Below are positions 10,367-29,517 of a DNA stretch of 46,361 nucleotides, one piece after another (position 1 is the stretch's first letter; each line of letters opens with the position of its first letter). Location: positions 1-46,361 of the forward strand of contig JAFQFH010000082.1 in assembly GCA_017398685.1 (NCBI GenBank), written 5' to 3'. The translations under genes and the position numbers were made by a program. Under the pieces are notes generated by a model that was not told the origin of the DNA, did not search any database, and saw nothing but the letters and a program-made list of their open reading frames with translations. This stretch comes from Oscillospiraceae bacterium. Its GTDB lineage: Bacteria > Bacillota > Clostridia > Oscillospirales > Oscillospiraceae.

Positions 10367-10374
10367 AAGCATAC

Positions 10375-11225: not shown

Positions 11226-11231
11226 ATAATC

Positions 11232-11999: not shown

Positions 12000-12053
12000 G
12001 TTCATCACTCCTTTTGGTACATGGTATGATGAACTATCTTAAGTTATTTGCCG

Positions 12054-12089: not shown

Positions 12090-12095
12090 CCATTA

Positions 12096-12590
12096 TTATT
12101 TATTTCTGAGGATTTTAAGCTCTCTGGCTTCTTTTCCTGTAATATGCTCGATTTTCATTTCAAGCATTGTGAGTGCGTCCCACTCCTTATTTATCATACC
12201 ATCCCGCCGTTCCTTTGTGTCATGGGGGACATATTTTTCTGCCAGCTTTCGTATGGCAAAAAGCTTTTGCACCTGATCCTCCATTATGCTTATTCTGCCG
12301 AAAACTATGACGCTTTGATAATGGGTGGTGTACTCCTCAGGAGAGATCTTGTCCTGAGCAATAACGCAGAAGGAAGCTTTGTCGTTTCTCTTTATGGCAT
12401 CTATCTTGTGCCCGGTTTTAGCACAGTGAAAATAAATCCTGTCCCCGTCATACACATAGGATATGGGCAGGGCGTAGGGATAGTCATCGTCCCCGGAAAG
12501 GGCCAGAATGCCTGAAGTTCCGCCATACAGTATCTCTTTTGCCTCAGCTTCTGTTAGAGCCTGTTTGCCGCGCCGCATCTCTCTGAACAT
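12096..12590 (-). CDS. Pyridoxamine 5'-phosphate oxidase-like flavoprotein (NimA-like)
   Basis: 164 residues, the size of NimA/5-nitroimidazole reductase relatives. It contains the flavin-binding split beta-barrel signature: LPISYVYDGDRIYFHCAKTG followed by K-x4-KR and ASFCVIA. These proteins bind FMN or haem; some reduce 5-nitroimidazoles to amines, but most members have no proven substrate. The start is supported by GGAGGTAAC 5 bases upstream. A possible promoter TTGCTG-16-TAAAAT lies in the gap towards hypA. Likely monocistronic, with its own terminator. Confidence 0.82.
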   Translation of the reverse strand: MFREMRRGKQALTEAEAKEILYGGTSGILALSGDDDYPYALPISYVYDGDRIYFHCAKTGHKIDAIKRNDKASFCVIAQDKISPEEYTTHYQSVIVFGRISIMEDQVQKLFAIRKLAEKYVPHDTKERRDGMINKEWDALTMLEMKIEHITGKEARELKILRNK

Positions 12591-12632
12591 ATCGTTACCT
12601 CCACAATTTTATGGCAATATTAAAGCACAGCA

Positions 12633-12662
12633 AAACGGCATGGTCAAGTGACCATGCCGTTT
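12633..12662 (-). terminator. Palindromic terminator after hypA
   Basis: 14-bp perfect stem (AAACGGCATGGTCA with its complement) and a 2-base loop just after the hypA stop on the minus strand; the stem ends in T residues followed by TGCTG. Confidence 0.8.
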
Positions 12663-12669
12663 AAATAAC

Positions 12670-13023
12670 TTACGCTGTTTCAGGGATGTGTATTTCCTTG
12701 ATGTTGAAATCCCTGCCGCTGAGCACTTCCTTTTCAAAGCTGCCGCAGTTGGGACAGTAGCCCTGATTTTCTATGACATTGAATATTTCGTCGCAGTCCT
12801 CGCACTCTGCGAGACCGGGAACTGTCTCAAGTATCAGCTTTGCGTCCTTCAAAAGCGGAATATCCGCTACCACCACCGGGTAAATCTCCTCAAGATACTG
12901 GGGGATGACCAGTGAAAGCTCGCCAACCTGACACACGACTTCTTCAATGCGCTCGATTTTGTTTTCAGCGGCGTAATCCATAAGGGTTTTGCACATGCTC
13001 CTGACTATGCCGATCTCATGCAT
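12670..13023 (-). CDS. hypA: HypA-type nickel metallochaperone
   Basis: 117 residues, standard HypA length. It starts MHEIGI, which supplies the His2-Glu3 nickel site. The zinc ribbon is formed by CEDC and CPNC. HypA delivers nickel to [NiFe]-hydrogenase or urease. Neither enzyme nor any other hyp gene is present in the window. Instead hypA lies 15 bases downstream of a large Fe-S/FAD oxidoreductase and is probably co-transcribed with it. The ribosome binding site is weak (GGTGACGGA), consistent with coupling. Confidence 0.92.
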   Translation of the reverse strand: MHEIGIVRSMCKTLMDYAAENKIERIEEVVCQVGELSLVIPQYLEEIYPVVVADIPLLKDAKLILETVPGLAECEDCDEIFNVIENQGYCPNCGSFEKEVLSGRDFNIKEIHIPETA

Positions 13024-13038
13024 ATTCCGTCACCAGCT

Positions 13039-15720: not shown

Positions 15721-15784
15721 GTTTTTACCCCTTTCTTTATGCCAGTGATAACTGTTGTGTCTAGACAAACTGCTTTTACTTGTT

Positions 15785-15813
15785 AAATTATTATTATTGT
15801 GGTTGTACCACAA
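15785..15813 (-). promoter_or_regulatory. Palindromic operator overlapping candidate promoter
   Basis: Perfect inverted repeat TTGTGGT-tgt-ACCACAA at 15797-15813. Read on the minus strand, its outer half supplies a -35-like TTGTGG, followed after 17 bases by TAATTT (15785-15790). This is upstream of the Fe-S/FAD oxidoreductase. The TTGTG...CACAA half-sites resemble Rex or CRP/FNR-type operators, but the spacing does not match the textbook 18-bp Rex site, so the regulator is not named. Confidence 0.55.
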
Positions 15814-15916
15814 GATATTTTACACCAATTCCAGAACTGACGCAAGGATGTAATGAATGTTTTGCGACAAATTTTTGCAGTCAATTTTGTGCATGTACTC
15901 CAAAAACCGGCTCTGC

Positions 15917-15945
15917 TTGATTTTTAAACCGCTAAAATATATAAT
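15917..15945 (+). promoter_or_regulatory. Sigma-A-type promoter of CYTH gene
   Basis: TTGATT (15917-15922), 17-base spacer, TATAAT (15940-15945), 30 bases before the CYTH start. Confidence 0.75.
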
Positions 15946-15974
15946 GACAGCAGCAATATATGGAGCCTGATTTT

Positions 15975-16478
15975 ATGTCTTGTAAGAATGAATTTGAGAT
16001 AGAGCGGAAGTTCCTCATCCGTATGCCTGACATTGAGTATCTTCGCAGCGTAGCTGAGATGTGCCATATTGAGCAGACCTATCTGAAAACCGATGAGAGC
16101 AGTGCAAGGGTGCGAAAGCGGGGCAGGGAAGGAAAATATGTATATACCCATACCGTGAAAAAAAGGCTTTCAGACCTGCGCCGTATTGAGCATGAGCGGG
16201 AGATAGCAGAGGAAGAATATGTCAGACTCCTTTGCTTTGCCGATCCTAAAATGAACGTAATTTTCAAGGACAGATACTGCGTAGATTATATGGGGCAAAT
16301 GCTTGAAATAGATGTTTTTCCCTTTTATCCGGACAGGGCTTTTCTTGAAATAGAGCTTGATGATGAAGCGCAGCGGTTTTTTATTCCGCCCTGGCTTGAG
16401 GTGATAAAGGAAGTTACAGGCGACAGACGCTACACCAACGCTGCCCTTGCCGTAGATATACCCTATGACCCAATCTGA
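15975..16478 (+). CDS. CYTH domain protein (triphosphatase family)
   Basis: 167 residues, one complete CYTH fold. The hallmark EIERKFLI is at residues 7-14, followed by basic and acidic strands (ARVRKRG, EHEREI, EIDVFPFYPDRAFLEIEL) that line the triphosphate tunnel. The family hydrolyses inorganic triphosphate or related substrates in a metal-dependent way. A GGAG at 15962-15965 sits 9 bases before the ATG at 15975, so that start is preferred to an in-frame ATG at 15960. It is monocistronic with its own promoter and terminator. Confidence 0.87.
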   Translation: MSCKNEFEIERKFLIRMPDIEYLRSVAEMCHIEQTYLKTDESSARVRKRGREGKYVYTHTVKKRLSDLRRIEHEREIAEEEYVRLLCFADPKMNVIFKDRYCVDYMGQMLEIDVFPFYPDRAFLEIELDDEAQRFFIPPWLEVIKEVTGDRRYTNAALAVDIPYDPI

Positions 16479-16485
16479 GCTGGAA

Positions 16486-16532
16486 ACTTTTATGGATTCT
16501 CAGCGTCAGAATTTCCATGAAAGTGTTTTTTT
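16486..16532 (+). terminator. Terminator after CYTH gene
   Basis: Interrupted stem of about 15 bp (ACTTTTATGGA with TCCATGAAAGT) followed by a run of seven T. Confidence 0.75.
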
Positions 16533-16583
16533 GACTTTTGCCTTGCCGCAAAAACTGCTTTGCGGCGGAAAGGAGCAGATTAT

Positions 16584-17906
16584 ATGAAGAAAACTATGTG
16601 CCTTGTGCTCGTTTTGCTTATTGGCATCTCACTTTGCGGCTGTTCGAGGCTGGCAGAGCTTGACCTGCCTCCTTTGCCCGATGTGGACAGTATCAGAGAG
16701 CAGCAGCAAGCAAGCCAGACAGCTCCGCCTGCCCCTGTTGAGACTATGCTGCCTCTGCCCAGTCCCGCACCTCTGGCAGCGGAACATGTTATTGTGAATA
16801 TAAGCCCGTACAGCGAGACATTTATGGATCCACAGCACGGCACCGAAGCTATACTGGACTATCATTATGAGCTGCCCGTCGTGTACGTGGAAGGCCGGGA
16901 TCAGGTAAGTAACGCCATCAATGAGCATCTTGCCGCGCTCAACGAAACCTTCCACACCGGCAATGACTATGGCTACGGCACGATGAGCGGCCTTAACATG
17001 TATCTGGAAATGGCAACCGACAACTATACCTATATGGTGAATACCGGCGATACCGCATCCGCCAGCCTGCCTTATTATTACGGACAGGACGTGAAGGCAG
17101 TACCCAGAGCCGATGAAAATGTGCTCAGCGTCCTTTACAGCACCAATTCCTTCTCCGGCGGTGCCCACGGCACATATGTGGACAGGGCATATTGCTTTGA
17201 CACCCGTACCGGTGAGCGCATAACATTGGATATGCTCACTCCTGACAGCGAGGCCTTGAAAAGCTTTCTGCAAGGCTATATGCTCTCCCTTTACGAAGCT
17301 GACGAAGGCGCTTACTATTCCGAAAGAATATTTGATGAAAACTTCCTTGGCGCTCCCGTTTCCGAGGCTGTAGCAACACTTATCAGGGAAGGCAGCTGGT
17401 ATCTTGGCGACAGCGGCATGGTAATTTTCTCCGACGTATATGAACTTGGCCCCTATGCTGCCGGAATATGCGAATTTGTCGTTCCCTACACCGAGCTTGC
17501 AGCTATCATTGATGCCAGATGGATGCCTACGGAAAGAAGCGGTGAGGGCAGCTTCAGCGTCCTTCCCCAGAGCGCGGTTGCCGAGGGAACAGCCCAGATA
17601 ATTGACCGCGTAACGGTTGACGCTGAGGGTGAGCAGCTCTGCCTTGTTGCAGAAGGCAGGGTTTATGACGTGCGCATTTCGGAAGTGAGCTATGCCGATA
17701 AATTTTACGAAACAGCCCAGCTCTGGGCGTGCAGCTATATGGAAAACTGCCTTTTGCAGCTGGATGTGACCGTGCCCGAGGGAATACCCAACCTGATGCT
17801 CAGATATACTGACGGTACAGGCGCAAAATATTCTCTTCTTCTCAGCCGCAGCGGTGTGGACGGAGGCTATACTCTGGTTAACGATGATATTGAGGCTGTG
17901 GGCTGA
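16584..17906 (+). CDS. Secreted lipoprotein with DUF3298 (RsiV-like) domain
   Basis: 440 residues. The signal peptide MKKTMCLVLVLLIGISLCGC ends in a lipobox (LCGC), so it is predicted to be lipid-anchored on the outer face of the membrane. A Pro-rich linker follows (about residues 45-70). Then comes a domain with the DUF4163/DUF3298 pattern, including FSGGAHGTYVDRAYCFD and TGERITLDML, as in RsiV and PdaC. DUF3298 of RsiV binds lysozyme, but here there is no sigma-factor partner or deacetylase domain. The last 130 residues are a further beta-rich region with no recognised match. AAGGAG lies 9 bases before the ATG. Confidence 0.75.
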   Translation: MKKTMCLVLVLLIGISLCGCSRLAELDLPPLPDVDSIREQQQASQTAPPAPVETMLPLPSPAPLAAEHVIVNISPYSETFMDPQHGTEAILDYHYELPVVYVEGRDQVSNAINEHLAALNETFHTGNDYGYGTMSGLNMYLEMATDNYTYMVNTGDTASASLPYYYGQDVKAVPRADENVLSVLYSTNSFSGGAHGTYVDRAYCFDTRTGERITLDMLTPDSEALKSFLQGYMLSLYEADEGAYYSERIFDENFLGAPVSEAVATLIREGSWYLGDSGMVIFSDVYELGPYAAGICEFVVPYTELAAIIDARWMPTERSGEGSFSVLPQSAVAEGTAQIIDRVTVDAEGEQLCLVAEGRVYDVRISEVSYADKFYETAQLWACSYMENCLLQLDVTVPEGIPNLMLRYTDGTGAKYSLLLSRSGVDGGYTLVNDDIEAVG

Positions 17907-17945
17907 AAAAGTCGATAAATACAACAAAATATAGTACAAAAACTG

Positions 17946-17974
17946 TTGACAGAACAAGCTTTTCATGTTATTCT
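17946..17974 (+). promoter_or_regulatory. Strong promoter of rplU-rpmA
   Basis: TTGACA (17946-17951), 17-base spacer, TATTCT (17969-17974), directly upstream of the L21 leader. Confidence 0.88.
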
Positions 17975-17980
17975 CTTAAG

Positions 17981-18049
17981 GCCGCATTGAAGGGGTAGAC
18001 AAGCCGGGATGCTCCCGCACCTCAAGAGCGAGACCTGAAAAGAGGGAGG
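17981..18049 (+). ncRNA. Ribosomal protein L21 leader
   Basis: Region of about 70 nt between the promoter and rplU in the position of the Firmicute L21 leader. It can form a structured RNA (for example GCCGGGATGCTCCCGC and a purine-rich 3' part before the GGGAGG site). In other Firmicutes this leader is an autoregulatory element for the rplU operon. I infer it from position, length and pairing; no covariance search was possible. Confidence 0.65.
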
Positions 18050-18058
18050 AAAATGTAC

Positions 18059-18373
18059 ATGAAGCATGCTATCATCGTTACCGGTGGCAAGCAGTACCGC
18101 GTTGCAGAGGGCGACGTTATCTTCGTTGAGAAGATGGACGCAGCCGCAGGCGAGACTGTCAAGTTCGAGCAGGTTCTGGCCGTTATCGACGGTGAGACCG
18201 CAGTGTTCGGCGCACCCGTTGTTGAAGGCGCAAGCGTTACCGCAAATGTTGTGAAGAACGGCAAGAGCGCAAAGGTCCGCGTCTACAAGATGAAGCCCAA
18301 AAAGGGCTACCGCAGAACTCAGGGCCACAGACAGCCCTACACCAAGGTCCAGATCGAAGCTATCAACGGCTGA
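18059..18373 (+). CDS. rplU: 50S ribosomal protein L21
   Basis: 104 residues, full-length L21. It shows [12 protein letters not shown] at the N terminus and the conserved [20 protein letters not shown]-terminal segment that contacts 23S rRNA. GGGAGG (18044-18049) is 9 bases before the ATG at 18059 and only 3 before the in-frame ATG at 18053, so the later start is preferred. First gene of the L21-L27 unit. No gene intervenes before rpmA, where many Firmicutes carry prp (ysxB). Confidence 0.95.
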
Positions 18374-18411
18374 TTTGTTCCGCAAAATATGACTAATGGA
18401 GGATAACCTTA

Positions 18412-18675
18412 ATGGCACATAAAAAAGGTATGGGTTCTACCAAGAACGGCCGCGACAGTGAGTCTAAGCGCCTTGGCGCAAAGAGAGCCGATGGTCAGTT
18501 CGTTCTCGCCGGCAATATCCTTGTCAGACAGCGCGGAACCAAGATCCACCCCGGTACCAACGTGGGCAAGGGTAAGGACGACACTCTGTTCGCTCTGATC
18601 GACGGCAAGGTGAAGTTCGAGCGCATGGGCAAGGACCGCAAGAAGGTCTCTGTTTACGAAGAAATCGCTCAGTAA
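18412..18675 (+). CDS. rpmA: 50S ribosomal protein L27, no N-terminal extension
   Basis: 87 residues. It begins [16 protein letters not shown], the mature L27 start seen in E. coli, instead of the cleavable extension (about 9 residues ending near FFA) found in Bacillus and Staphylococcus. The remaining sequence ([26 protein letters not shown]) is canonical. The N-terminal tail reaches the peptidyl transferase centre. GGAGG lies 9-10 bases upstream of the ATG, so the start is well set. The gap from rplU is only 38 bases. Confidence 0.96.
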
Positions 18676-18682
18676 AAGACCA

Positions 18683-18717
18683 AAACAGGCCGGACAGTTA
18701 TGCCCGGCCTGTTTTTT
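18683..18717 (+). terminator. Terminator after rpmA
   Basis: 10-bp stem AACAGGCCGG / CCGGCCTGTT, then a run of six T. Confidence 0.92.
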
Positions 18718-18748
18718 AGTTTCAATCAGACTTTAAGGAGGAGTGCTC

Positions 18749-20032
18749 ATGGCATCTTCTTTTGTGGATAAAGCCAGAATAAGTGTTCACGCCGGAAAAG
18801 GCGGTGACGGTGCGGTTTCTTTCCACCGTGAAAAGTACGTGGCCGCAGGCGGCCCGGACGGCGGTGACGGAGGTCGCGGCGGCAGCGTGATTTTTGTGGT
18901 GGACGATCATATGTCCACTCTCATGGACTTTCGCTATAAGCGCAAGTATGTTGCAGGCAACGGCAATAACGGCGGCGCCAAGCGTTGTTACGGCAGAGAC
19001 GGGGAGAACCTTTATATTAAAGTTCCCCGGGGTACAATTGTCCGCGATACCGAAACCGGAGCTATCATGCACGATATGTCCACCGGTGAGAATTTCACCG
19101 TGGCAAAAGGCGGCCGCGGCGGCTGGGGCAATATGCACTTTGCCACGCCCACCCGTCAGGTTCCCCGATTTGCAAAGCCCGGCCTGCCCGGTGAGAGCCA
19201 TGATATCACTCTGGAGCTCAAGCTTCTGGCAGATGTGGGTCTTGTGGGCTTTCCCAATGTGGGTAAATCCACCCTGCTCTCCGTTGTAAGCCGCGCTCAT
19301 CCCAAAATTGCAAACTATCACTTCACCACGCTTTTCCCCAATCTGGGCGTTGTGTACGTGGATGAGGGCGTGTCCTTCGTCATGGCGGATATCCCCGGCA
19401 TTATTGAGGGCGCATCTGAGGGCGCGGGCCTTGGCCACGATTTTCTCCGGCATATTGACCGCTGCCGCCTTTTGGTGCATCTGGTGGATGTTTCCGGCAG
19501 TGAGGGCCGTGATCCCGTTGAAGATTTTGACGCCATCAATGCCGAGCTTGCCGAATACAGCCCCGGGCTTGCAAGCCGTCCTCAGCTGGTTGCCGCCAAC
19601 AAGTGCGACATTCTGGGTGATGACAGGGAGAATATCGAGCGCCTCAGAGCCCATGTTGAGGAGCTTGGCTATCAGTTTTTTGAGATGAGTGCCGCCGCTC
19701 ACATGGGAACAAAGGAGCTTGTGAAGGCATGCTCCGGTCTTCTGGATACTCTGCCTCCCGTAGCAAGCTATGAGGCGGACTATGTTCCCCCCGAACCTGT
19801 GGTGGACACTTCCGAGGACATCACCATCGAGCACTTTGACGATATGTGGATCGTGGAAGGCCCCTGGCTTCAGCGCCTTGTGGCCCGCATCAATTTTGAG
19901 GACTACGAAAGCCGTATGTACTTTGACCGCATCCTGCGCGAAGCCGGTGTGTACGAGCGCATGGAACAGATGGGCGTCAAGGACGGCGACACTGTCAGCA
20001 TGTACGATCTGATGTTTGAATATAAGGATTAA
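18749..20032 (+). CDS. obgE: Obg GTPase
   Basis: 427 residues with the three Obg domains in order. The Gly-rich Obg fold has KGGDGAVSFHREKYV and GGPDGGDGGRGG. The GTPase domain has G1 GFPNVGKST, G3 DIPGIIEG and G4 NKCD. A C-terminal OCT domain ends near DLMFEYKD. It acts in 50S ribosome assembly and stringent and sporulation signalling. AAGGAGG ends 6 bases before the ATG at 18749; an in-frame GTG at 18743 is too close. It follows rplU-rpmA as in most bacteria, but behind a terminator. Confidence 0.96.
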   Translation: MASSFVDKARISVHAGKGGDGAVSFHREKYVAAGGPDGGDGGRGGSVIFVVDDHMSTLMDFRYKRKYVAGNGNNGGAKRCYGRDGENLYIKVPRGTIVRDTETGAIMHDMSTGENFTVAKGGRGGWGNMHFATPTRQVPRFAKPGLPGESHDITLELKLLADVGLVGFPNVGKSTLLSVVSRAHPKIANYHFTTLFPNLGVVYVDEGVSFVMADIPGIIEGASEGAGLGHDFLRHIDRCRLLVHLVDVSGSEGRDPVEDFDAINAELAEYSPGLASRPQLVAANKCDILGDDRENIERLRAHVEELGYQFFEMSAAAHMGTKELVKACSGLLDTLPPVASYEADYVPPEPVVDTSEDITIEHFDDMWIVEGPWLQRLVARINFEDYESRMYFDRILREAGVYERMEQMGVKDGDTVSMYDLMFEYKD

Positions 20033-20067
20033 AAAAATCCGGAAAGCCTGCGCTTTCCGGATTTTTT
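20031..20067 (+). terminator. Terminator after obgE
   Basis: Stem AAAATCCGGAAAGC / GCTTTCCGGATTTT with a 4-base loop and T-run; overlaps the obgE stop codon. Confidence 0.92.
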
Positions 20068-20115
20068 GCGGGGATTTGCTGAAAGGTAAGAATGAAAGGA
20101 AAAGCTTTTCGGTAA

Positions 20116-22263
20116 TTAGAAACCGAAGAATATTTCAGCAAAGGTGGTTCCTGCATATGCAAAGTTGATGCCTGTGCTGGAAACGAGGAACCATGCAGCC
20201 ATGAAGCTGTTTACAAAGGTGCCGAGCCATACGCTGTTTGTCAGCTTGTAGAACTTTCGGCTTATAAATACAGTGATGGGCACGTAGAGAAGGGCGTAGT
20301 AGTAGGTGATGAAGGATGCGAAGAACTGTGCTTCTCCGACAGGGGACTGCATCATCACAAGCTGATTTATAAGGCAGCACAGCCAGACACCCAGGGAATT
20401 AATTACTATGGTATTGAGCGTATCTCTCCATTCGGGGATATCATCACGGACGTTATAGTTGCATGCCATGCCGAGGATGAGGAAGCAGGGAACGAAGGTA
20501 ACAAAGTAACGGGGGAGAATACCCCAGTATTCCAGCTTCATCTCTGTGAACATAGTCTGCCACAGGCGATAATCCTGCTTGAACAGATATTCGATCACAG
20601 CAAGGCTCAGGTATGCCACAGCCAGCAGTATAGCGCCAAGAAGCAGTGCCTTCATGATATTGCCGAACTTCTGACCTACATTAAGTACGCGCATATCTGT
20701 GTCGCCGTATTTCTTCTTGTTGAAAATACCCCAGCATATAAGGCAGATAATTGCGAGCACGCTCATGTAAGAGAGAAGCTGGGTGGCAGACCAGCCGCTT
20801 ATGTACAGGGGGAAGAAGCGGTTTGTGGGAAGGTTGATAAACCCGAAGTATTTGAACACAGGGCTGTTGGACTGGCAGGGGTAGTAAATGCACCAGAATG
20901 TGCCAAAAGCAATGAATGCAGACCAGAGCCAGTAACTCTTTTTGTTGAAGGGGGTAAGGCGCTTTTTCTCAGGAACTACAAGGCTTGCAAAGAATTCGCC
21001 CTTCATCAGCAGTGAAGCAAGAGGCACGAGCATCGCTATCATTGCCAGCATTGCGATTGCGCTGCAGGCTCTGCCCCAACCCCAGATCTGATTTTCCGGT
21101 GCAAGGGGAACCGTGGCTGCATCTGTCAGTTCACCGCGGTTGTAGTTAAACATTGCAGTGAAGAATGCGCAGGCATTTGCATTTGTCTTGTTGGACAGGA
21201 AATTCTTGGAGTGGGTTTCGGGGGGCTGAGTGACCATTCTCAGCGTTCTGTCGGCGAGAGCGGCTTTGAATGTGTCGCTTTCGTATACACTGCTGTCGCC
21301 CCAGTCACCGATGATGGTGCTTGTCTCGGCAGCATCATCAAGGACGTACCATTTATCGATTTCTATGGTCTCTCCCTTTGTAAACCAGCTGTCCTTGGCG
21401 TTGTCCTGGGTTATAATGTTGCAGTAGCTGTCCCACTGACCGATGTTGAAGCCGATGTTGACCTGTCCGTTTCTCATTACGGTATAACCGCCTACTTCAA
21501 CTTCGGCGCGGGTGAGCAGCAGGTCTTCTCTCATGCCGAGGGAAAGGAAAGCCTTTACACTGTTGTCAATGGTCTCTCTTACTCCCTCAGCCAGGTAATT
21601 ATAAAATTCGAGCTCATCGTCAGTGAGTCTTTCGGCTGCAAGAGCATCAGCATCCATGTCGATTTCCTCACGGGTGAAGCTCTGGGAGAAGGTGTCGCAG
21701 AGGATGTTGATCATCTGGTCGTTGTAGCTGAGTCTGCCGCAGTCAAGATCAACTGCATAGTTTGAACGGCGGCTGCCGGCTGAGTGGCCGGTAATACCTA
21801 TTCTCGTAGTGTCAACGAATTTCAGGGATTTGACAAAGTCAATGGAGTCCTTAAGACCGTGTGCTGCGGTACCGCGTCCGCTGACCCCGTTTATACCTTC
21901 GTCGGATTCATCGAAAATTGGCTGTTCGCTCAATCCGGAACCGTATGCGCTGACATTGAAAACAACAAAGCCGCGCCTTGCCAGTTCCTCAGCCAGACCT
22001 CTTACAACTCCGTACGCACAGCCACCACCGTGGGCGACAATTACCGCAGGCAGCTTATCCTCATCGGATGTTGCTGCCGGATAGTAAAGCTCGCCGTTCA
22101 GCGTGGCACCACGTGCATCCGTGGTTATGTGTTCGATTTTTACTGTAAATCCATTTGATGAAAAGATGCAGGCAATAAAACTGAAAATCAGAATTATTGC
22201 AACGCATGCGGCAAACAGTCTTGCCGAGCCTGATTTGGTGTGGAGAGTAAATTTCTTCTCCAT
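20116..22263 (-). CDS. Membrane protein with alpha/beta-hydrolase domain and about ten-helix C-terminal part
   Basis: 715 residues. An N-terminal membrane helix (about residues 15-36) is followed by an extracytoplasmic alpha/beta-hydrolase-like domain. It has an oxyanion-hole strand VIVAHGGG, a RGFVVFNVSAYGSG segment, the nucleophile elbow GHSAG and a late ETHSKNF His. From about residue 385 there are about ten hydrophobic helices (for example MLAMIAMLVPLASLL, LLGAILLAVAYLSLA, FLILGMACNY), with no transporter family recognised. AAAAGGAGG lies before the ATG. It is divergent from a MarR gene, which probably controls it. Substrate unknown; hydrolysis or remodelling of a lipid or envelope ester is possible. 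Confidence 0.7.
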   Translation of the reverse strand: MEKKFTLHTKSGSARLFAACVAIILIFSFIACIFSSNGFTVKIEHITTDARGATLNGELYYPAATSDEDKLPAVIVAHGGGCAYGVVRGLAEELARRGFVVFNVSAYGSGLSEQPIFDESDEGINGVSGRGTAAHGLKDSIDFVKSLKFVDTTRIGITGHSAGSRRSNYAVDLDCGRLSYNDQMINILCDTFSQSFTREEIDMDADALAAERLTDDELEFYNYLAEGVRETIDNSVKAFLSLGMREDLLLTRAEVEVGGYTVMRNGQVNIGFNIGQWDSYCNIITQDNAKDSWFTKGETIEIDKWYVLDDAAETSTIIGDWGDSSVYESDTFKAALADRTLRMVTQPPETHSKNFLSNKTNANACAFFTAMFNYNRGELTDAATVPLAPENQIWGWGRACSAIAMLAMIAMLVPLASLLMKGEFFASLVVPEKKRLTPFNKKSYWLWSAFIAFGTFWCIYYPCQSNSPVFKYFGFINLPTNRFFPLYISGWSATQLLSYMSVLAIICLICWGIFNKKKYGDTDMRVLNVGQKFGNIMKALLLGAILLAVAYLSLAVIEYLFKQDYRLWQTMFTEMKLEYWGILPRYFVTFVPCFLILGMACNYNVRDDIPEWRDTLNTIVINSLGVWLCCLINQLVMMQSPVGEAQFFASFITYYYALLYVPITVFISRKFYKLTNSVWLGTFVNSFMAAWFLVSSTGINFAYAGTTFAEIFFGF

Positions 22264-22483
22264 TTTTTATCCTCCTTTTACAAAATAAATTCTGCAAGAA
22301 TGTATTTTGATGATAACAGAATACTAAAACATCTTCAAGGGATTAAAATACATGAAAATTTTGCGGTTGTTTTGTCGAAATTTTACAATCATTATAATTT
22401 ATTTTAATTCTGCAAAATATAAGTGGATTTCAAAATGGTGGTATGGTATACTGATTTTTGGAAATATTTTATGGAGGTAAGCT

Positions 22484-22990
22484 ATGGTCGATTGGATGGG
22501 GAGGTACAGAAACCTTGTTGCTGCCATCGTTCAGCATACCAATGTAATTACCAAAGCCGGTAATGTAAGCCATTTTATGTACGACGGAATTTATATGACC
22601 TCAAATGAATGGCAGGTCATGGAATATATAGTGGAACACCGGGACGATGATGAAAAGATGATACTCATGTCGGAGGCTCTAGGCATTCCGCAAAGTTCTT
22701 TTTCAAAGATAATTAAACGTATGAGCGCTTTGGGACTGGTTGAACGTTACCGCAGCATTGATAATAAAAAGAATATTATCCTAAAGCCCACAGCCCTCGC
22801 GATGGAAGTTTATAATTTTCATGCAGAGCAGTCGTATAACGAAGTTTTTAAGCCTTTTTTTGATGCCTTGGAAGGAATAAGCGATGATGATCTTGAAACA
22901 GTCACTAATGCTATTTCGCTGCTGTCCTCCAATATTATCGGAAGTCAGAAGGAGCCGGAAGAAAAAAGCAAGCTTATAAAAATAGATTAA
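22484..22990 (+). CDS. MarR family transcriptional regulator
   Basis: 168 residues, winged-helix MarR fold: TSNEWQVMEYI, the recognition region LGIPQSSFSKIIKRMSALGLVER and a wing with DNKKN. A helical dimerisation C terminus follows. MarR proteins usually repress a neighbour and release DNA on binding a small ligand. The divergent hydrolase-membrane gene is the likely target through the 220-base shared promoter region. ATGGAGG precedes the start, and a TGGTATACT extended -10 lies about 36 bases upstream. Confidence 0.88.
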   Translation: MVDWMGRYRNLVAAIVQHTNVITKAGNVSHFMYDGIYMTSNEWQVMEYIVEHRDDDEKMILMSEALGIPQSSFSKIIKRMSALGLVERYRSIDNKKNIILKPTALAMEVYNFHAEQSYNEVFKPFFDALEGISDDDLETVTNAISLLSSNIIGSQKEPEEKSKLIKID

Positions 22991-22995
22991 AAAGT

Positions 22996-23030
22996 TGCCC
23001 TTGCGGATTTTGGTCCGCAAGGGCATTTTT
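22996..23030. terminator. Bidirectional terminator (MarR gene / MFS gene)
   Basis: 12-bp stem TGCCCTTGCGGA / TCCGCAAGGGCA, T-run on the plus side and TTTTT on the minus side, between convergent genes. Confidence 0.9.
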
Positions 23031-23059
23031 ACTATGACACTTGTTTTTCTGACTCTGGA

Positions 23060-24271
23060 CTAATTATTCTGCCTTGGTTTTTTCCTATTCAACAAACAAA
23101 CAAGACAGATTGCCGTCCCCAAAATTGCAAGAAGCATTGTAAAAGGAAGAACGTGTGATACACTGAATTTATCAAGAAGAAAGCCGAATACAACGGTGCT
23201 GATGAAAGAAAATAAAAGCGGGAGCCCAGTCATAAGACTTTGAGCCAGCGCTGTACTGTTATATGGAATGTTTTCGCGCACATATTCCACCGCGCTTGGC
23301 TGGTATATTCCCGTGGAGAACGCCTGAAGGCTGGACGCTGCAATAAGTACGCCAAAACTTCCGGCAAAGGTATAGCCCGTTATTTTCAGCGTGTAAAAGA
23401 CCATGCTGAAAAACAGTAACAGCGAAACGGAATATCGCTTTTTAAGATTGCTGAATAAAAAGCTGACTGGTACCTCAATAAGTGCAAGATATGCGCTGAT
23501 TATCCCAAAATGTCTTGCATTGCCACCTACACCGTCCACAATGTTCACAAGAAAAACAGTGAGTGTCTTATTAGATGCAGAGACGAGAGAAATGCCAATT
23601 ACCAGAAATACAAAGCTTTTGTATGACATGATAAAGTTTGACAAAGATAATCCATCTGCCCTTTTTACACATCCTGGTGCAGATATAATATTATATTGTG
23701 CAAGTGCATTTTTTCTTATGTATAATGATATGGACAACAGTATTAAAAAGAGACAAAGACAAATGAAAAGCATAAAAATGGGGTGTATGCTCATGAGCAG
23801 TGACCCTGCAAAAATTGAGGTCATCGCATAACCCAGAGAGCCGAGACCTCTTGCTATTCCAAAATTGATCTCAAATCCAATTTCTTTAAGATCCATATAC
23901 AGCTTGCTTATCAAAGTGTTTATAATATGTGTGATAGACATAAACACAATGTACGATATAGACACAGCAATACAAGGAATTCTTATTATAAAAACCAACA
24001 GCAGCGCCGCAGCCTGAACTGATATGCCTGTCATCAACGAAGAGTAAACTGCATGTCCACCGTTCTTATCAACATGCTGTGAAACAGACAGCATCAATAT
24101 GAAACCCAGAACGGAGGATATGGCGCTGATAAGTCCAATGCTGGAGTTGGAATATCCGATTTTGCCGAGAAAAGCAGAAGCAAAGCCGATGGCGATACAT
24201 CCACAAGTCCAGTATATAAACTGAATGAGACAGTAAGCAATATTTAATGAAGGCGATTTAATACTGTTCAT
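23060..24271 (-). CDS. MFS transporter (MFS_1-like)
   Basis: 403 residues with about 12 hydrophobic helices. The GIARGLGSLGYA segment near the middle resembles the sugar/nucleoside proton symporter branch (LacY-like, MFS_1_like), not the drug exporters. A HVDKNGG loop lies between helices 2 and 3. Substrate unknown. The sequence looks more AT-rich than the housekeeping genes, suggesting transfer. The start at 24271 follows AGGATG. An open frame continues to 24361 but reads non-conserved residues. Convergent with MarR. Confidence 0.8.
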   Translation of the reverse strand: MNSIKSPSLNIAYCLIQFIYWTCGCIAIGFASAFLGKIGYSNSSIGLISAISSVLGFILMLSVSQHVDKNGGHAVYSSLMTGISVQAAALLLVFIIRIPCIAVSISYIVFMSITHIINTLISKLYMDLKEIGFEINFGIARGLGSLGYAMTSIFAGSLLMSIHPIFMLFICLCLFLILLSISLYIRKNALAQYNIISAPGCVKRADGLSLSNFIMSYKSFVFLVIGISLVSASNKTLTVFLVNIVDGVGGNARHFGIISAYLALIEVPVSFLFSNLKKRYSVSLLLFFSMVFYTLKITGYTFAGSFGVLIAASSLQAFSTGIYQPSAVEYVRENIPYNSTALAQSLMTGLPLLFSFISTVVFGFLLDKFSVSHVLPFTMLLAILGTAICLVCLLNRKKPRQNN

Positions 24272-24396
24272 ATTTACATCCTGTTTTTCAAGTTTCAAAC
24301 TTTCTGTATGATACAAATTGATTATAACAGAATTAATATTAAAATGAAAGACGGAATACAAAATTTGAGAACTACTTTGATCAAAAATCGGGTGAC

Positions 24397-24433
24397 AAAA
24401 AATCAGTAGAGCATAAAGCTCTCCTGATTTTTT
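24397..24433. terminator. Orphan terminator resembling the SASP terminator
   Basis: AAATCAG-T-AGAGC / GCTCT-C-CTGATTT stem, flanked by A and T runs. No gene ends here on either strand (the MFS gene reads away). Its sequence matches the SASP terminator at 24844-24882 closely (acaaaaaa, tcag, agagcata, ctcctga), suggesting a relic of a deleted SASP copy. Confidence 0.6.
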
Positions 24434-24526
24434 GCGTGTGAAAGTATGAACTTGTATTTATACGAAAGTATGAATAGCTTTTGGATTGAAATCAGTCTTT
24501 TACAACAGGTATTTTTCATATTTTTA

Positions 24527-24557
24527 TGAAAAATTTACATCTCCGTATTCCGTATAT
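24527..24557 (+). promoter_or_regulatory. Candidate forespore (sigma-G/F-like) promoter of SASP
   Basis: TGAAAA (24527-24532), 18-base spacer, CGTATAT (24551-24557), loosely like the sigma-G pattern TGAATA/CATACTA. A similar pair at the same spacing lies upstream of the truncated SASP copy at 29.1 kb, which supports conservation. The start site is unproven. Confidence 0.4.
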
Positions 24558-24570
24558 CTTCAAGCATAAA

Positions 24571-24709
24571 GCAAAAGATATTCTCGGGCAAAAACCCAAA
24601 TGAGAAAAAGGAGATGAAAGAATATGTCTAACAATTCTTCCAGTAATCGTCTTGTTGTTCCCGCTGCCCGCGAGGCAATGGAGAAGTTCAAGATGGAGGC
24701 CGCTTCTGA
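24571..24709 (+). repeat. 139-bp inverted repeat, left copy (SASP 5' half)
   Basis: Matches the reverse complement of 28974-29112 at 133 of 139 positions with no gap (counted by eye). It spans the SASP leader, ribosome binding site and the first 29 codons. Confidence 0.9.
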
Positions 24710-24827
24710 AGTCGGCGTCAACCTGAAGAACGGTTACAACGGCGACCTTACCAGTCGTCAGGCCGGTTCCGTCGGTGGCCAGATGGTCAAGAAGATGATC
24801 GAGGCTTACGAGAACGGCATCAAGTAA
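24624..24827 (+). CDS. Alpha/beta-type small acid-soluble spore protein
   Basis: 67 residues, standard SASP length. It binds and protects spore DNA in the forespore and is degraded by the GPR protease on germination. It shows the N-terminal AREAMEKFKMEAASEVGV block with a GPR-type cleavage site (E-A-A-S-E) and the C-terminal DNA-binding block SRQAGSVGGQMVKKMIEA. AAAAAGGAG lies about 10 bases upstream of the ATG. Its 5' half is duplicated in inverted orientation at 29 kb. Its presence is direct evidence that the organism forms endospores or descends from one that did. Confidence 0.94.
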   Translation: MSNNSSSNRLVVPAAREAMEKFKMEAASEVGVNLKNGYNGDLTSRQAGSVGGQMVKKMIEAYENGIK

Positions 24828-24843
24828 GAGCGAATATCCGTAC

Positions 24844-24882
24844 AAAAAATTCAGGAGAGCATAATGCCCTCCTGAATTTTTC
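24844..24882 (+). terminator. Terminator after SASP gene
   Basis: 14-bp stem AAAAATTCAGGAG / CTCCTGAATTTTT followed by a T-rich run. Confidence 0.9.
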
Positions 24883-24970
24883 TTTTTTACCGTATAAGCT
24901 TGTATTGTTGTTATTCCCAATGATGTGTTAGAATACGTTTCAGGCTATTACACTTTCTGAGGTGAGAATT

Positions 24971-25285
24971 ATGGCAACGGGCAAAGAGTATCTCAGCTTC
25001 ATTCTGGAGCAGCTTTCGGAAATTGATGGTATTACATACAGGCGCATGATGGGGGAGTATATCATTTACCATCACGGGAAAATCGCGGCCTATCTCTGCG
25101 ATGACCGCCTTTTGGTGAAGATACTTCCAAGCAGCGAAGCTCTTATGCCGGAGGCTGTCAGAGAGCCGCCCTATGAGGGCGCGAAGGATATGCTTCTTGT
25201 GGACAATGTGGACGACAGGAGCTATCTTAAAAACCTCTTTGAGGCCATGTACCCGGAGCTGCCAGAGCCTGGAAAGAAAAAATAA
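24971..25285 (+). CDS. TfoX N-terminal domain protein
   Basis: 104 residues made up of a TfoX/Sxy N-terminal domain: ITYRRMMGEYIIYHHGK, then DDRLLVKI and a C-terminal YLKNLFEAMYPELP helix. In gamma-proteobacteria TfoX activates competence genes. In Firmicutes the stand-alone domain has no assigned role, and no link to comEC at 3 kb is implied. The ATG at 24971 follows GAGGTGAG; the in-frame GTG at 24962 is within that site. Confidence 0.82.
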   Translation: MATGKEYLSFILEQLSEIDGITYRRMMGEYIIYHHGKIAAYLCDDRLLVKILPSSEALMPEAVREPPYEGAKDMLLVDNVDDRSYLKNLFEAMYPELPEPGKKK

Positions 25286-25307
25286 ATCTTTTTCTGAAAT
25301 ATTATAG

Positions 25308-25346
25308 AAAACACAGTGAGCTACAATAAAACTCACTGTGTTTTTT
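25308..25346. terminator. Bidirectional terminator (TfoX-like / XRE gene)
   Basis: 11-bp stem AACACAGTGAG / CTCACTGTGTT with T-run on the plus side and TTTTC on the minus side, between convergent genes. Confidence 0.9.
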
Positions 25347-25347
25347 G

Positions 25348-26112
25348 CTATCGCTTTTTGTAGACAAGAAGCTGGGGATTTTCTCCGTCTTCTCCGTAAG
25401 TGCATATGAGAATAAAGTCCATATTGGCAGCTATTCCAAAGCACACGCTTTTGTCAAATTCACATTCCAGCTGATTACCTAAGTACGTCGCCCCATCATC
25501 CAGAAATTTTACGGTTTTTCCGTTGGGAAGCCGATACTCCATGTTGATGTAGCCGCCTACTAGAGCGTTCAGCTTTTCAAGCTTTGGCATGCCATCAATG
25601 TTCAGAGCGTTTATTTCATCAATAAGTTTGTGCTTGAATTCCTCAAACTTTTCTGCTCCATCCAGATTCTTATATCTCTTCCAATAATCAAGTTTAGGCA
25701 GTAAATCCTTCATATATGCCCGTGCCTGCTCAGCGGAGATGCTGTCGTTTGCCATATTATTTACGCAGACCTCGATCAGATCATCCATGTCGTGATACAT
25801 ATATTCGCCATCTGCATAACACCATTTGCAGTAGTCTTCATTAAAGAAACCGTCTGTTTCCTTGCTGATATTGGAGTCCTCAAGGGGCATACCACAGCAC
25901 TGGCAGATGAGCTGCCTTGGAGCGCCGAGAAGGGTATTGATAGAAACATCAAAGAGTTTTGAGAGCAGTTTCAGCGTCTCGGTGTTCGGTGTGGTTTCAC
26001 CGTTTTCCCAGCGGGACACCGCCTGGCGGGTTACGAATACTTTTTCTGCAAGGTCTTCCTGTGACATGCCTTTTTTTGTTCTAAGCTCAAGAATTATATC
26101 CTTTGTGTCCAT
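25348..26112 (-). CDS. XRE family regulator with zinc-ribbon and C-terminal sensor-like domain
   Basis: 254 residues. Residues 5-62 are a Cro/C1-type helix-turn-helix (KGMSQEDLAEKVFVTRQAVSRWENGE). Residues about 69-100 are a Cys-rich putative zinc ribbon: CQCCGMPL and CKWCYADG. A helical segment follows (about 110-170), then a beta-rich C-terminal part ending ICTYGEDGENPQLLVYKK. The architecture is common in Clostridia, where the zinc ribbon resembles proteins annotated as quorum or stress regulators; the target is unknown. GAGGTGAG precedes the start. Confidence 0.85.
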   Translation of the reverse strand: MDTKDIILELRTKKGMSQEDLAEKVFVTRQAVSRWENGETTPNTETLKLLSKLFDVSINTLLGAPRQLICQCCGMPLEDSNISKETDGFFNEDYCKWCYADGEYMYHDMDDLIEVCVNNMANDSISAEQARAYMKDLLPKLDYWKRYKNLDGAEKFEEFKHKLIDEINALNIDGMPKLEKLNALVGGYINMEYRLPNGKTVKFLDDGATYLGNQLECEFDKSVCFGIAANMDFILICTYGEDGENPQLLVYKKR

Positions 26113-26244
26113 AAAATGCTCACCTCGTACATCAGTATAAATTGTGGAGTGCGAATTGGCAAGAAACTCCCTGTTGCTGTACGTCAGCCATATAGTAAGC
26201 CGACAAAACCGCGACTCGTTACCGAACCGCAGTCTTTGCGTGAT

Positions 26245-26511
26245 TTATCTATCATTCAAGATGTCATCAAGGAAGCTACCCAACTCATCAATTGAACAGC
26301 CTTTGCGACCAATAGCGCGATCTTCTTCCACAGCGAGAAGGTTTTCTCTCAGTTGAAGCATCTTTTCACACCGTGTGAAGCTTTTAATATCCATGACGAC
26401 GGTGTCATTCATGCCGTCTACCGTGAGGTACACCGGACTTTGGGTCTGGCGACATATGTCTGCGATTTCATTATAATTTTGCTGAAGGGTAGTAAAGGGA
26501 TAGACGTTCAT
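26245..26511 (-). CDS. Phd/YefM-type antitoxin, no toxin partner
   Basis: 88 residues. The N-terminal part fits the Phd/YefM DNA-binding fold (LQQNYNEIADICRQTQSPVYLT, then DTVVMDIKSF). The C-terminal toxin-binding tail contains IGRKGCSIDEL. Such antitoxins neutralise a RelE/ParE or Doc toxin encoded just downstream. Here the 132 bases after the stop carry no reading frame with RelE/ParE character. The start overlaps the stop of the esterase gene by ATGA, so translation is coupled to an enzyme gene. Confidence 0.82.
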   Translation of the reverse strand: MNVYPFTTLQQNYNEIADICRQTQSPVYLTVDGMNDTVVMDIKSFTRCEKMLQLRENLLAVEEDRAIGRKGCSIDELGSFLDDILNDR

Positions 26512-27266
26512 ATTTGTTCCTCCCAGAACTCCACGGCCTTCTCAATCCAACCCTGGCAGGGGAGGCCTTCGCCAAGGCCGACGCCGTGGTCAACATTATC
26601 ATAGGAAACAAAACGGTGGGGGACAGCTGCTGCCTTGAGCGCATCGGCCATCATGCGGCTGTTGTCCGGGTCAACCACTTGATCTGCCAGACCGCACCAT
26701 ACAAAGGTGGGTGGATAGTCGGAAGTAACCTGCTTTTCAACGCTGGCAAGCTCTATCATGTCCGCCGAAGGATTTTTACCCAACAGCAGCTCCCGGGTGA
26801 GGGGGTGGGTTTTCTCACCCATGCTGATAACGGGGTAGCTGAGGATAATCGCACCGGGCTTGGGAACATCATAGAGCGGATATCCCATAGACGTGGTACC
26901 AAAGCTGGCTGCCAGATGACCACCGGCGGATGCGCCCCAAAGGGAGTAGCCCTCCATGTCCAGATTCCACTCCTCGCTGTGTGCGGCTATATCCTTGATT
27001 GCCCGGGCCACATCACGCTGCGGCGCGGGGTAGCCCGCATTCTTGCCACATGCATAGTGCACCACAAAAGCAGAATAGCCTCTTTTGTTCAGCCGACGGG
27101 CGTAGGGCATACCTTCAACAAAGCTGGCCACAAATCGGTATGCCCCGCCGGGACAGATTATAGCCACCGGGTGTTTCTTCCCATCGTTGATGATATACTT
27201 TTCAAGATAATACCCGCCCTTGTGCAGGTTATCTTTGATTTTTCGTATGAGCAGTTCAAGTTTCAT
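26508..27266 (-). CDS. Alpha/beta-hydrolase, acetyl-esterase/lipase type
   Basis: 252 residues, no signal peptide, so cytoplasmic. It has the oxyanion hole ICPGGAY, the nucleophile elbow WGASAGGHLA, an acid near WCGLADQVVDPDNS and the final His in NVDHGVG. This pattern fits BD-FAE/acetyl-xylan esterase-like enzymes. Substrate unknown. The start follows a GGATAAAG-like site. The gene ends in an ATGA overlap with the Phd antitoxin, forming a two-gene unit on the minus strand. Confidence 0.85.
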   Translation of the reverse strand: MKLELLIRKIKDNLHKGGYYLEKYIINDGKKHPVAIICPGGAYRFVASFVEGMPYARRLNKRGYSAFVVHYACGKNAGYPAPQRDVARAIKDIAAHSEEWNLDMEGYSLWGASAGGHLAASFGTTSMGYPLYDVPKPGAIILSYPVISMGEKTHPLTRELLLGKNPSADMIELASVEKQVTSDYPPTFVWCGLADQVVDPDNSRMMADALKAAAVPHRFVSYDNVDHGVGLGEGLPCQGWIEKAVEFWEEQI

Positions 27267-27294
27267 ACTTTATCCTCGAAACTCCGATTGAAAA

Positions 27295-27816
27295 TTAAGG
27301 TTTGCATCGGCCGCAAGGGTCATAACCCCTTGCTATTACATCGCTGCGATCACCTACAAACTCTGCTTTGTTTGATTCTTTCATGTCATCTACACTTGAG
27401 CAAGATGGCTTATGGAACTTTTTGGTGTTTGTGTTGAGGATATATGTTGTGCCGGTTGGAGCAGAACTGGAGTCTTCCTGAACGTTTGCAAGGCCTCTGA
27501 CTGGCTGGTCACTGTCAGAGTAGTCTCCGAGAGAAAGAATATTAAGCAATTCGCCATCGTTGTACTTGTCTTCAATTGTGGAGATTAATTTATAGTACAG
27601 GAAAAGCACATCTTCTCCGGAGATAGCTCCATTATAAAAGGCGTCCTTAACATCGTCCTTGTTATAGGGAATTTCATTGAGAAGTTCTTCGAGCACGGCT
27701 TTTCTTCCGTCAGTCAGTCCGCTTTCATAGCTTCCGTCGGCGTAAGATACCACAGGCAAGGAGAGCATAAAGAGTACGCACAGGAAGATACATATCAAAG
27801 TTTTTGCCTTTTTCAT
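27295..27816 (-). CDS. Secreted protein with C-terminal Cys/His motif
   Basis: 173 residues. A signal peptide (MKKAKTLICIFLCVLFMLSLPVVSYA) is followed by an acidic helical middle (about residues 30-110). The C terminus has YILNTNTKKFHKPSCSSVDD and GYDPCGRCKP, a compact His/Cys arrangement like the metal-binding tail found after some secreted nucleases and in Ada-like motifs. It is probably exported; function unknown. Two Cys plus one His in the tail and CGRC could bind a metal ion. Located between the esterase unit and the toxin-antitoxin pair. Confidence 0.65.
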   Translation of the reverse strand: MKKAKTLICIFLCVLFMLSLPVVSYADGSYESGLTDGRKAVLEELLNEIPYNKDDVKDAFYNGAISGEDVLFLYYKLISTIEDKYNDGELLNILSLGDYSDSDQPVRGLANVQEDSSSAPTGTTYILNTNTKKFHKPSCSSVDDMKESNKAEFVGDRSDVIARGYDPCGRCKP

Positions 27817-27960
27817 AATAACACCTGACTTTTATCATTATTTTGTTTTTATTTTGAGTATATACCCGATTATATTGCATTTCAACTGATTTCAAGGGAT
27901 TAGTTATCCCGAACTGGCACTTTTGCAAAAAAGATTAAGTCAAATTAAAACATTGTTTTC

Positions 27961-27989
27961 TTGTTTTACACTGAAGAATATGATAAAAT
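27961..27989 (+). promoter_or_regulatory. Promoter of MNT-HEPN pair
   Basis: TTGTTT (27961-27966), 17-base spacer, TAAAAT (27984-27989), 27 bases before the MNT start. Confidence 0.7.
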
Positions 27990-28015
27990 ATTGAAAAATG
28001 AGAGGAGGGCTAAAT

Positions 28016-28357
28016 ATGTGCACTAATCAACAAGTAAATAGTATTATCAGCCAGTTGTGCTCTGGATTAAAGCCCTTGTTCCCTCAGAGTTCAATGGAAG
28101 CGATTTTATTTGGTTCATATGCCAGAGGCGAAGCAGAGTCAGATTCCGATATTGATGTAATGGTTTTAGTTGACTCTTCCCGTCAGGAGATATCGAGCAA
28201 GATGTGGCAGATTGGAGATGTAGCAGCAGAGATTCTTTTGAACAGCGGTATCGTAGTCTCACCAATCGTTGAGAACCGCAGCTATTTTCAGCAAAATGCA
28301 TCGTTTTTCCCCTTGTACAAGAATATCGTTCGCGAGGGAGTAAGATATAATGCTTGA
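28016..28357 (+). CDS. MNT nucleotidyltransferase antitoxin (MntA-like)
   Basis: 113 residues, minimal nucleotidyltransferase. It has the exact GSX10DXD motif (GSYARG...SDIDV). In characterised MntA-HepT systems this enzyme adds AMPs to a Tyr of the HEPN toxin and so silences it. GAGGAGG lies before the ATG at 28016. It overlaps the HEPN gene by 8 bases, the usual arrangement. The codons look more AT-rich than in neighbouring housekeeping genes. Confidence 0.88.
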   Translation: MCTNQQVNSIISQLCSGLKPLFPQSSMEAILFGSYARGEAESDSDIDVMVLVDSSRQEISSKMWQIGDVAAEILLNSGIVVSPIVENRSYFQQNASFFPLYKNIVREGVRYNA

Positions 28358-28751
28358 TGAAAAATATATAGAATTATCTAAATACCGCTTAGAGCGGGCA
28401 GAGGAAATGCTGAAAACGGCCAAACGAGATTTAGCAGCCGGGGACTATGCCTCTGCTAATAATAGGGCATACTACTGTGTTTTTCATGCTATGCGTGCGA
28501 TGCTTGCCCTTACGGGAGAGGATTATAAAAAGCATTCAGGGGTAATTTCCAGTTTCTCCGAGCAATACTTGAAAACTAAGCTCCTTCCAATTGAGTTGAG
28601 CAAAGTCATATCAACGGCATCCATTATTCGAAATAGGAGTGACTATGAAGACTTTTATATTTGCTCTATTCAGGATACCAATAAACTTGTTGCGGATGCA
28701 CAGATGCTTGAACAAGTCAGTGCTTTTTTAAAAATTAAATATGAATCTTGA
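28350..28751 (+). CDS. HEPN domain toxin-like protein (HepT-like)
   Basis: 133 residues, all-helical HEPN fold with the ANNRAYYCVFHAMRAML helix. In HepT toxins the catalytic site is R-x4-H-x-Y. Here the matching segment is R96-S-D-Y-E-D101-F-Y103, so Arg and the modifiable Tyr are kept but the His is replaced by Asp. It may therefore be a weak or altered RNase, or belong to the HEPN branch with an R...DY signature. Cotranslated with the MNT gene by an 8-base overlap. A strong hairpin follows 66 bases later. Confidence 0.85.
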   Translation: MLDEKYIELSKYRLERAEEMLKTAKRDLAAGDYASANNRAYYCVFHAMRAMLALTGEDYKKHSGVISSFSEQYLKTKLLPIELSKVISTASIIRNRSDYEDFYICSIQDTNKLVADAQMLEQVSAFLKIKYES

Positions 28752-28817
28752 TTATCAAAAAGCAAGAGTGTATAGTAATACAAAATTCGCCAAAATAATG
28801 AAAATATATCCAGAACA

Positions 28818-28855
28818 AAACCCGCAGCTGATGTCGAAAAATCAGCTGCGGGTTT
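28818..28855. terminator. Hairpin between MNT-HEPN pair and truncated SASP
   Basis: 15-bp perfect stem AAACCCGCAGCTGAT / ATCAGCTGCGGGTTT with an 8-base loop. The T-run is short in both directions. Probably ends the MNT-HEPN transcript. Confidence 0.75.
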
Positions 28856-28948
28856 AAATATGTAACATTACAAAAAGTGCTACAAAAATTTTGAATATAA
28901 GACAAAATCTGCGCAAAATATGCTGAATTTGATGCAAAAATGGCTGTG

Positions 28949-29059
28949 TTAATATGGTTGGGATACAGCCCCATCAGAAGCGGCATCCATCTTGAACTTC
29001 TCCATGGCCTCACGGGCAGCGGGAACAACAAGACGATTACTGGAAGAATTGTTAGACAT
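28949..29059 (-). pseudogene. Truncated SASP gene copy
   Basis: 36 codons read on the minus strand. The first 29 match the intact SASP at 24624 (MSNNSSSNRLVVPAAREA... to AAS) with one difference, Glu to Asp at residue 25. After AAS-D the frame runs into unrelated residues (GAVSQPY) and a stop. The C-terminal GSVGG block, needed for DNA binding, is missing. The leader, ribosome binding site and upstream promoter-like sequence are kept, so a short peptide could still be made in the forespore. Confidence 0.9.
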
Positions 29060-29112
29060 ATTCTTTCATCTCCTTTTTCTCAATTGGACTTTTGCCCGAG
29101 AATATCTTTTGC
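28974..29112 (-). repeat. 139-bp inverted repeat, right copy
   Basis: Reverse complement of 24571-24709 with 6 mismatches and no gap (by eye). Three mismatches are in the leader and three are in the coding part. Confidence 0.9.
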
Positions 29113-29517
29113 GTAAAGTAAAGATATATGCGGAAAAAGAAAGTGTAATTTTTTCATGTTTTGGATAGCTTTATGAGAGGCTGAAATATAATTCATGGAA
29201 TGTTCTGCACAAGAGGTTTGCAGCAGAGCTGGGGACACACCTCTGGGCCGTGTTTTCACCGACGACTCTGAATCCTCCAATAAAATCCGCCATTGTATCA
29301 ACAGCGTGTCCTTGAGAATTGTTCCCCTATGAGCATCTGGAGCAGGAGGGCGGCGGGGATTTTATAGAAATCTTTTCATATTGCACATTTTCCCCGCCAG
29401 AATTATTTCCCGTCTTGGTCTTGCCGCTTATTATTGTCATAGCTATGGACAATTTCTGCTGATTTATAAATTCGATTTATGTGATATAATTTATAAAAAA
29501 CAACAGGAGGCAACAAC
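29113..29517. other. Gene-free stretch before nitroreductases
   Basis: About 400 bases without a supported gene. It contains the upstream region of the truncated SASP (to about 29150), a GC-richer, possibly decayed coding stretch at 29196-29420 that I could not identify, a near-palindrome TTGTCATAG-CTATG-GACAA (29434-29452) and a TATAAT -10 at 29485-29490 for the nitroreductase genes. Confidence 0.5.
29434..29490 (+). promoter_or_regulatory. Nitroreductase promoter region with near-palindrome
   Basis: TATAAT at 29485-29490, 28 bases before the start, with no good -35. A near-perfect palindrome (29434-29452) 33 bases upstream could be an operator or activator site. Confidence 0.45.

Follow-up and report, generated by a model that had tools for sequence, protein, structure and literature searches.

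SASPs coat and protect spore DNA. They are made in the forespore, in general under the control of sigma-G. Genes of the sporulation programme are known targets of intervening elements, among them skin in sigK, SP-beta in spsM, vfbin in spoVFB, gin in gerE and yin in yabG, with phi3T in kamA alongside. The accessible text of PMC10747680 deals with the elements in sigK, spsM, spoVFB and gerE, with yabG in its title; that of PMC8270828 treats spsM, kamA and sspC and states sigma-G control for sspC. SASPs are not mentioned in the accessible part of PMC5595907, nor does the term occur in that of PMC10294663, and a full-text literature search (main texts, with a minority of subscription papers) found no element that interrupts a SASP gene. 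The stretch of DNA analysed here (the window; 46,361 nucleotides) carries an intact SASP gene and half of another. The half gene is very probably an attL scar, left by an integrative element (phage or island) with a large serine integrase whose attB lies inside the alpha/beta-type SASP gene. On this reading half-SASP genes are explained as attachment scars rather than as switches.

The two copies lie in inverted repeats of 139 bp (Table 1), ungapped and identical at 133 positions, with six differences; a repeat search returned them within a 184-nt match at 88%. Upstream of the arms 29 of 45 nt agree, after which similarity is gone (25/100), and past the break the arms are unrelated (10/30). 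Both copies face inward and only the left extends into a full alpha/beta-type SASP, matching PF00269 over residues 8–65 (E 4.8e-30). The right fragment (E 1.9e-5) encodes residues 1–28 and breaks off after the second base of codon 29, where other sequence begins. Searched at E up to 1, PF00269 matches the 85-contig assembly at these two places only. The SASP homology of the repeat is not due to chance, because 45 of the 60 genomes searched, that of the window included, have SASP sequence that aligns to the region. The initial annotation had reported the repeat, the inward reading with an intact 3' half on the left only, and the enclosed genes: the repeat gave identical values when remeasured, the PF00269 matches agree with the reading of the copies, and domain matches bear out the gene descriptions, the Phd-like protein falling below the Pfam cut-off. 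The GC content is 0.39 at 22–25 kb and 28–29 kb against 0.50–0.57 at 17–20 kb, and the A+T-rich stretches within 20000–29000 are as in acquired DNA. The nucleotidyltransferase–HEPN pair was considered as cargo of the element; this is unsupported, homologous pairs being present at four other loci of the genus.

Table 1. Features of the window around the two SASP copies
Feature	Position	Strand	Remark
obg	18743..20032	+	anchor gene; in sister genome G061 a SASP 3' half lies 7 bases on, on the opposite strand
Second SASP-type terminator copy (T')	24397..24433		between divergent genes
Promoter-side upstream part of left arm	24526..24570	+	29/45 identical to right
Left inverted repeat arm	24571..24709	+	leader and 5' half of intact SASP
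Intact alpha/beta-type SASP gene, 67 aa	24624..24827	+	codon 29 uninterrupted (attB-like)
SASP terminator (T)	24845..24881	+	
TfoX_N protein	24962..25285	+	within segment
XRE regulator with zinc ribbon	25348..26112	-	
Phd/YefM-like antitoxin	26245..26511	-	below Pfam cut-off
Esterase-like alpha/beta hydrolase	26508..27266	-	
Secreted protein	27295..27816	-	Ada-like zinc-binding match
Nucleotidyltransferase, MntA-like	27998..28357	+	PADLOC PDC-S09
HEPN protein, HepT-like	28350..28751	+	
Element end (attP half) of putative attL scar	28949..28973	-	top matrix score of window
SASP 5' half broken inside codon 29	28974..29046	-	
Right inverted repeat arm	28974..29112	-	
Promoter-side upstream part of right arm	29113..29157	-	

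That annotation had also proposed a recombination-mediated switch of SASP expression, in which homologous recombination of the 139-bp arms would flip 24571–29112 and swap the promoter of the intact gene. Inverted arms with an exact run of 70 nt, their longest, and promoter-side similarity kept by both speak for such a switch, but the arms are imperfect, no recombinase was seen among the eight proteins scanned from the intact SASP to the HEPN protein (host recombination would need none), and the break is accounted for by an attachment site. A flip modelled with whole arms exchanged does keep a full gene, as had been claimed, but leaves the SASP protein unchanged and puts its gene under a related promoter. 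The switch is very unlikely, and the segment probably does not flip today. Gene conversion between the arms was considered as well, as the identities of core (0.957) and upstream part (0.696) resembled a conversion tract; it was rejected, as 30 pairs from the genus with a core identity of at least 0.9 average 0.717 upstream (34 of 39 sequences were usable).

The position of the break is shared with relatives (G and L numbers are our handles for genomes and loci). PF00269 was surveyed in 102 genomes of the genus at a cut-off of E 0.01; 69 gave a match and 33 none. By best coverage 58 of the 69 have a full SASP, including the genome of the window and G027, each with an extra 5' half. In three the match stops at profile position 50–51, six have split halves only (G066, G061, G077, G380, G004 and G394), and two have other fragments (G014, G035). 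G061 and G004 gave a 3' half alone, but at 71% and 80% completeness these drafts could lack an intact copy that the genomes have. Outside the genus, G205, G139, G051, G267 and G315 (91–99% complete) have two halves and no intact copy, with two further matches below the cut-off in G051. SASP halves with no intact SASP were thus found in 11 relatives, six within the genus and five outside. Both halves share a contig and a strand in G205 (about 23 kb apart), G139 (about 13 kb), G051 (about 36 kb) and G394 (about 12 kb).

The 5' halves of the window, G027, G077, G066, G394, G205, G139, G267, G315 and G051 all stop at the GA homologous to that of codon 29. The SASP 5' half of phage clone MT836041 has the same end, making ten besides the window; the 5' half detected in G380 stands outside this count. 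The 3' halves of eleven genomes and of G566, 12 relatives in all, start at the same codon. In G066 and G139 the element arm is SASP-like next to the cut, which places the break only to about 10 and 5 bases. As would be expected of an attL, the cut in the host gene falls where independent insertions have it too. In G027 a similar scar lies beside chromosomal genes, with the intact SASP on another contig. A phage collection searched with the SASP region returned five records, in all of which the match spans codon 29, with no half gene cut there; the SASP protein matched three loci of viral contigs (residues 1–67, 1–67 and 8–60), and the SASP attL pattern matched none.

Two copies 96% identical in one contig might also stem from an inverted duplication of the SASP gene and a later chance truncation. 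This is highly improbable, as the truncation falls at the codon cut in other genomes and is followed by element-end sequence; the matrix described below disfavours it. The second suggestion of the initial annotation, an insertion scar between duplicated SASP genes, is close as regards the scar, but the cut at a shared codon points to an attachment site used by a SASP-specific serine integrase and not to a random insertion. The window is a whole contig of a metagenome-type draft, and an artefact of assembly or binning has to be weighed too, but the six differences between the arms and the scar beside chromosomal genes in G027 make it scarcely credible.

A second SASP insertion site lies near codon 57 (L138 1662–1934, L139 11773–13521 and L233 near 12890). 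G018 and G394 have identical junction sequence at this site, and the integrase of G018, a different one (24% identical), runs in frame into the tail of SASP. In G080 and G068 the SASP match breaks off close to the same profile position, and G394 appears to have been hit at both sites.

A large serine integrase lies at most about 110 bases before the 3' half in 11 of the 12 relatives; in G394 and MT836041 the integrase adjoins the 5' half instead. The integrase of G051 was compared with 295 genomes of the order, scoring the best four candidates at most per genome. The clade members of this search are those of G051 (the query), G267, G315, G139, G205, G184 and G004, the last added from a separate search, and six of the seven abut a 3' half; none of 24 further loci at 32–37% identity and none of eight general PF07508 loci does so. 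The exception, in G184, has no adjacent SASP half, and that genome has an intact SASP; a palindrome-like stretch follows this integrase. Further pairs of integrase and 3' half were found in G061, G380, G077, G066 and G566, the last being the one match at E 1e-140 in a class-wide profile search (391 genomes, best three candidates at most in each). In a tree of 39 integrases, built without that of G315, which is broken over contigs, the 14 clade members form one group with support of 100/100: 12 from beside a SASP half, one on a phage contig and one in G184. No SASP half was found in 80 viral loci (L256 among them being the phage contig itself), and the G051 integrase had no plasmid match at 1e-90. 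Viral contig L257, 41% identical to the integrase profile, gave no SASP half by tblastn and no attP recognised by eye.

The phage contig, IMG/VR 3300013383_000024 (L244; 99 kb), combines the clade integrase with matches to endolysin, dUTPase and nucleotide kinase. Behind the integrase, a stretch of 56 bp is palindromic at 46 of its positions. At its centre stands GA, which is also the crossover dinucleotide deduced from the split SASP genes, and the stretch is read as an intact attP, predicted to target SASP. In the window, the sequence past the break was compared with single element arms, agreeing at 19 of 25 positions with G394, 18 with G051, G267 and G315, 17 with G077 and 16 with G139, then 14 with the phage, 13 with G066, 10 with G205 and 7 with G027. 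The unevenness of these matches (19/25 to 7/25) counts against the attL reading. A matrix built from eight distinct arms of other elements, with the window left out, scored 23.2 at 28973 on the minus strand, the first of 92,674 window positions, the next reaching 12.5. By this measure the bases beyond the cut look like an attP half as found in related elements. The common cut point, the integrase clade, the attP and the matrix rank together mean that the right half reads as an attL scar. The assembly holds no separate 3' half, and no clade integrase was found in the genome among the best four of 12 candidates in the order search or the best three of 12 in the class-wide search; the right half would therefore be a scar and not one end of an intact element, and, as the window holds neither integrase nor attR, the element itself is inferred.

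In the mechanism proposed, the integrase would cross over at the GA dinucleotide of codon 29 in the SASP attB, and integration would split the gene into a 5' half at attL and a 3' half at attR. Such an element would have integrated into SASP in the lineage of the window, and its body, with integrase and attR, would later have been lost. A rearrangement may then have placed the intact SASP 4.1 kb away in the opposite orientation.

The neighbourhood of obg bears on this history. The sister genome G061 is collinear with window positions 2897–20033 (84% over 17 kb), and there, 7 bases past the end of obg, come a SASP terminator and 3' half that lie on the other strand, with the integrase next; the flanks of G061 past the halves differ from the window. 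SASP and obg converge closely at L011, L040, L050, L051 (L061 is a record of the same locus), L060, L067, L204 and L210, and with a gap at L049. Judged by G061, the older strand is that of the right half, and it is the intact copy, 4.5 kb from obg, that is inverted. At L022 and L043 SASP lies behind obg on the same strand, so that the strand of the intact copy is not unique to the window. The halves in G066 (L231 9685–9783 and L232 13973–14095, contig C1) lie on opposite strands 48 kb apart, which implies an inversion after integration; rearrangement of this kind is therefore not unique to the window either. The single SASP gene varies in place and strand within the genus (L022 1504–1692, L043 6908–7093, L041 6543–6740, L038 7168–7365), being found on the same strand behind obg, behind genes homologous to window 31–6864, or near a DNA-ligase-like gene (by eye). 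T', the sole other SASP-type terminator match in the assembly at the search threshold, lies between divergent genes. Its two orientations agree with the G061 terminator at 24 (+) and 27 (-) of 31 positions and with the window terminator at 26 and 25, and it hints at the remains of another SASP copy.

The intact SASP could instead be cargo of this or another element, the disrupted copy being the host's own gene. SP-beta offers a precedent in carrying the alpha/beta SASP gene sspC (PMC8270828, accessible text), and the position of the intact gene, in A+T-rich DNA on the same side of attL as the element, would fit. Against this, the intact gene and G061 share 92% identity over 3' half and terminator, a weak point as G380 and G077 reach 93–94% over a shorter 3' half, and the 99-kb phage contig of the clade, which may be a fragment, has no PF00269 match. 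A cargo origin is unlikely; it would leave the attL reading untouched and change only where the intact copy came from.

The gene for the SASP protease, gpr, is present in 16 of 16 genomes tested, namely all 11 with split SASP only and five others. The window has no free 3' half. Both halves were recovered from seven relatives, and in silico they rejoin in frame in all seven pairs (a count without G394 and G380, in which G066 is bookkeeping, its halves being on opposite strands). Retention of gpr and in-frame rejoining suggest that the hosts still use SASP and that the gene would be made whole by excision. Among the cargo proteins tested, those of G205 and G051 have matches to reverse transcriptases, a GajB-like helicase, GmrSD, AbiEi/AbiEii and an N6 methylase, which gives some elements the look of defence islands. 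The tested proteins of G139 yielded LuxR-type, S-layer and Schlafen-type matches, and one G394 protein a Band-7 match.

We tentatively suggest that integration may be coupled to the spore cycle: the clade uses SASP as attB, the sole SASP gene is split in at least 11 genomes, and excision would have to rebuild it before the spore is protected. If this is true, excision in the forespore would remove the element from the germ line, unless the spore carries it along as a circle that re-integrates once germination has taken place. With an integrase clade directed at SASP, mobile elements, including some that carry defence genes, become linked to the fitness of the spore, and the question arises whether the elements leave the spore chromosome or the hosts live with a broken SASP. 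The question is testable because SASP is a forespore gene.

Among described systems, invertible DNA switches likewise have a segment between inverted repeats; unlike them, this locus has imperfect arms, no invertase was seen in the segment, and no change of output is expected. The sites of large serine integrases are closer, with a palindromic attP, a central dinucleotide, hybrid sites once integrated and the integrase at one end. They differ in target; the literature searched gave no example of SASP as the target of a large serine integrase, and the accessible part of PMC10083194 names other targets. The intervening elements of sporulation genes share with the elements described here a site-specific recombinase, a fixed site in a sporulation gene and a reading frame restored on removal, here in silico. 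The target here is an alpha/beta-type SASP gene that acts in the forespore, and the window holds only the scar.
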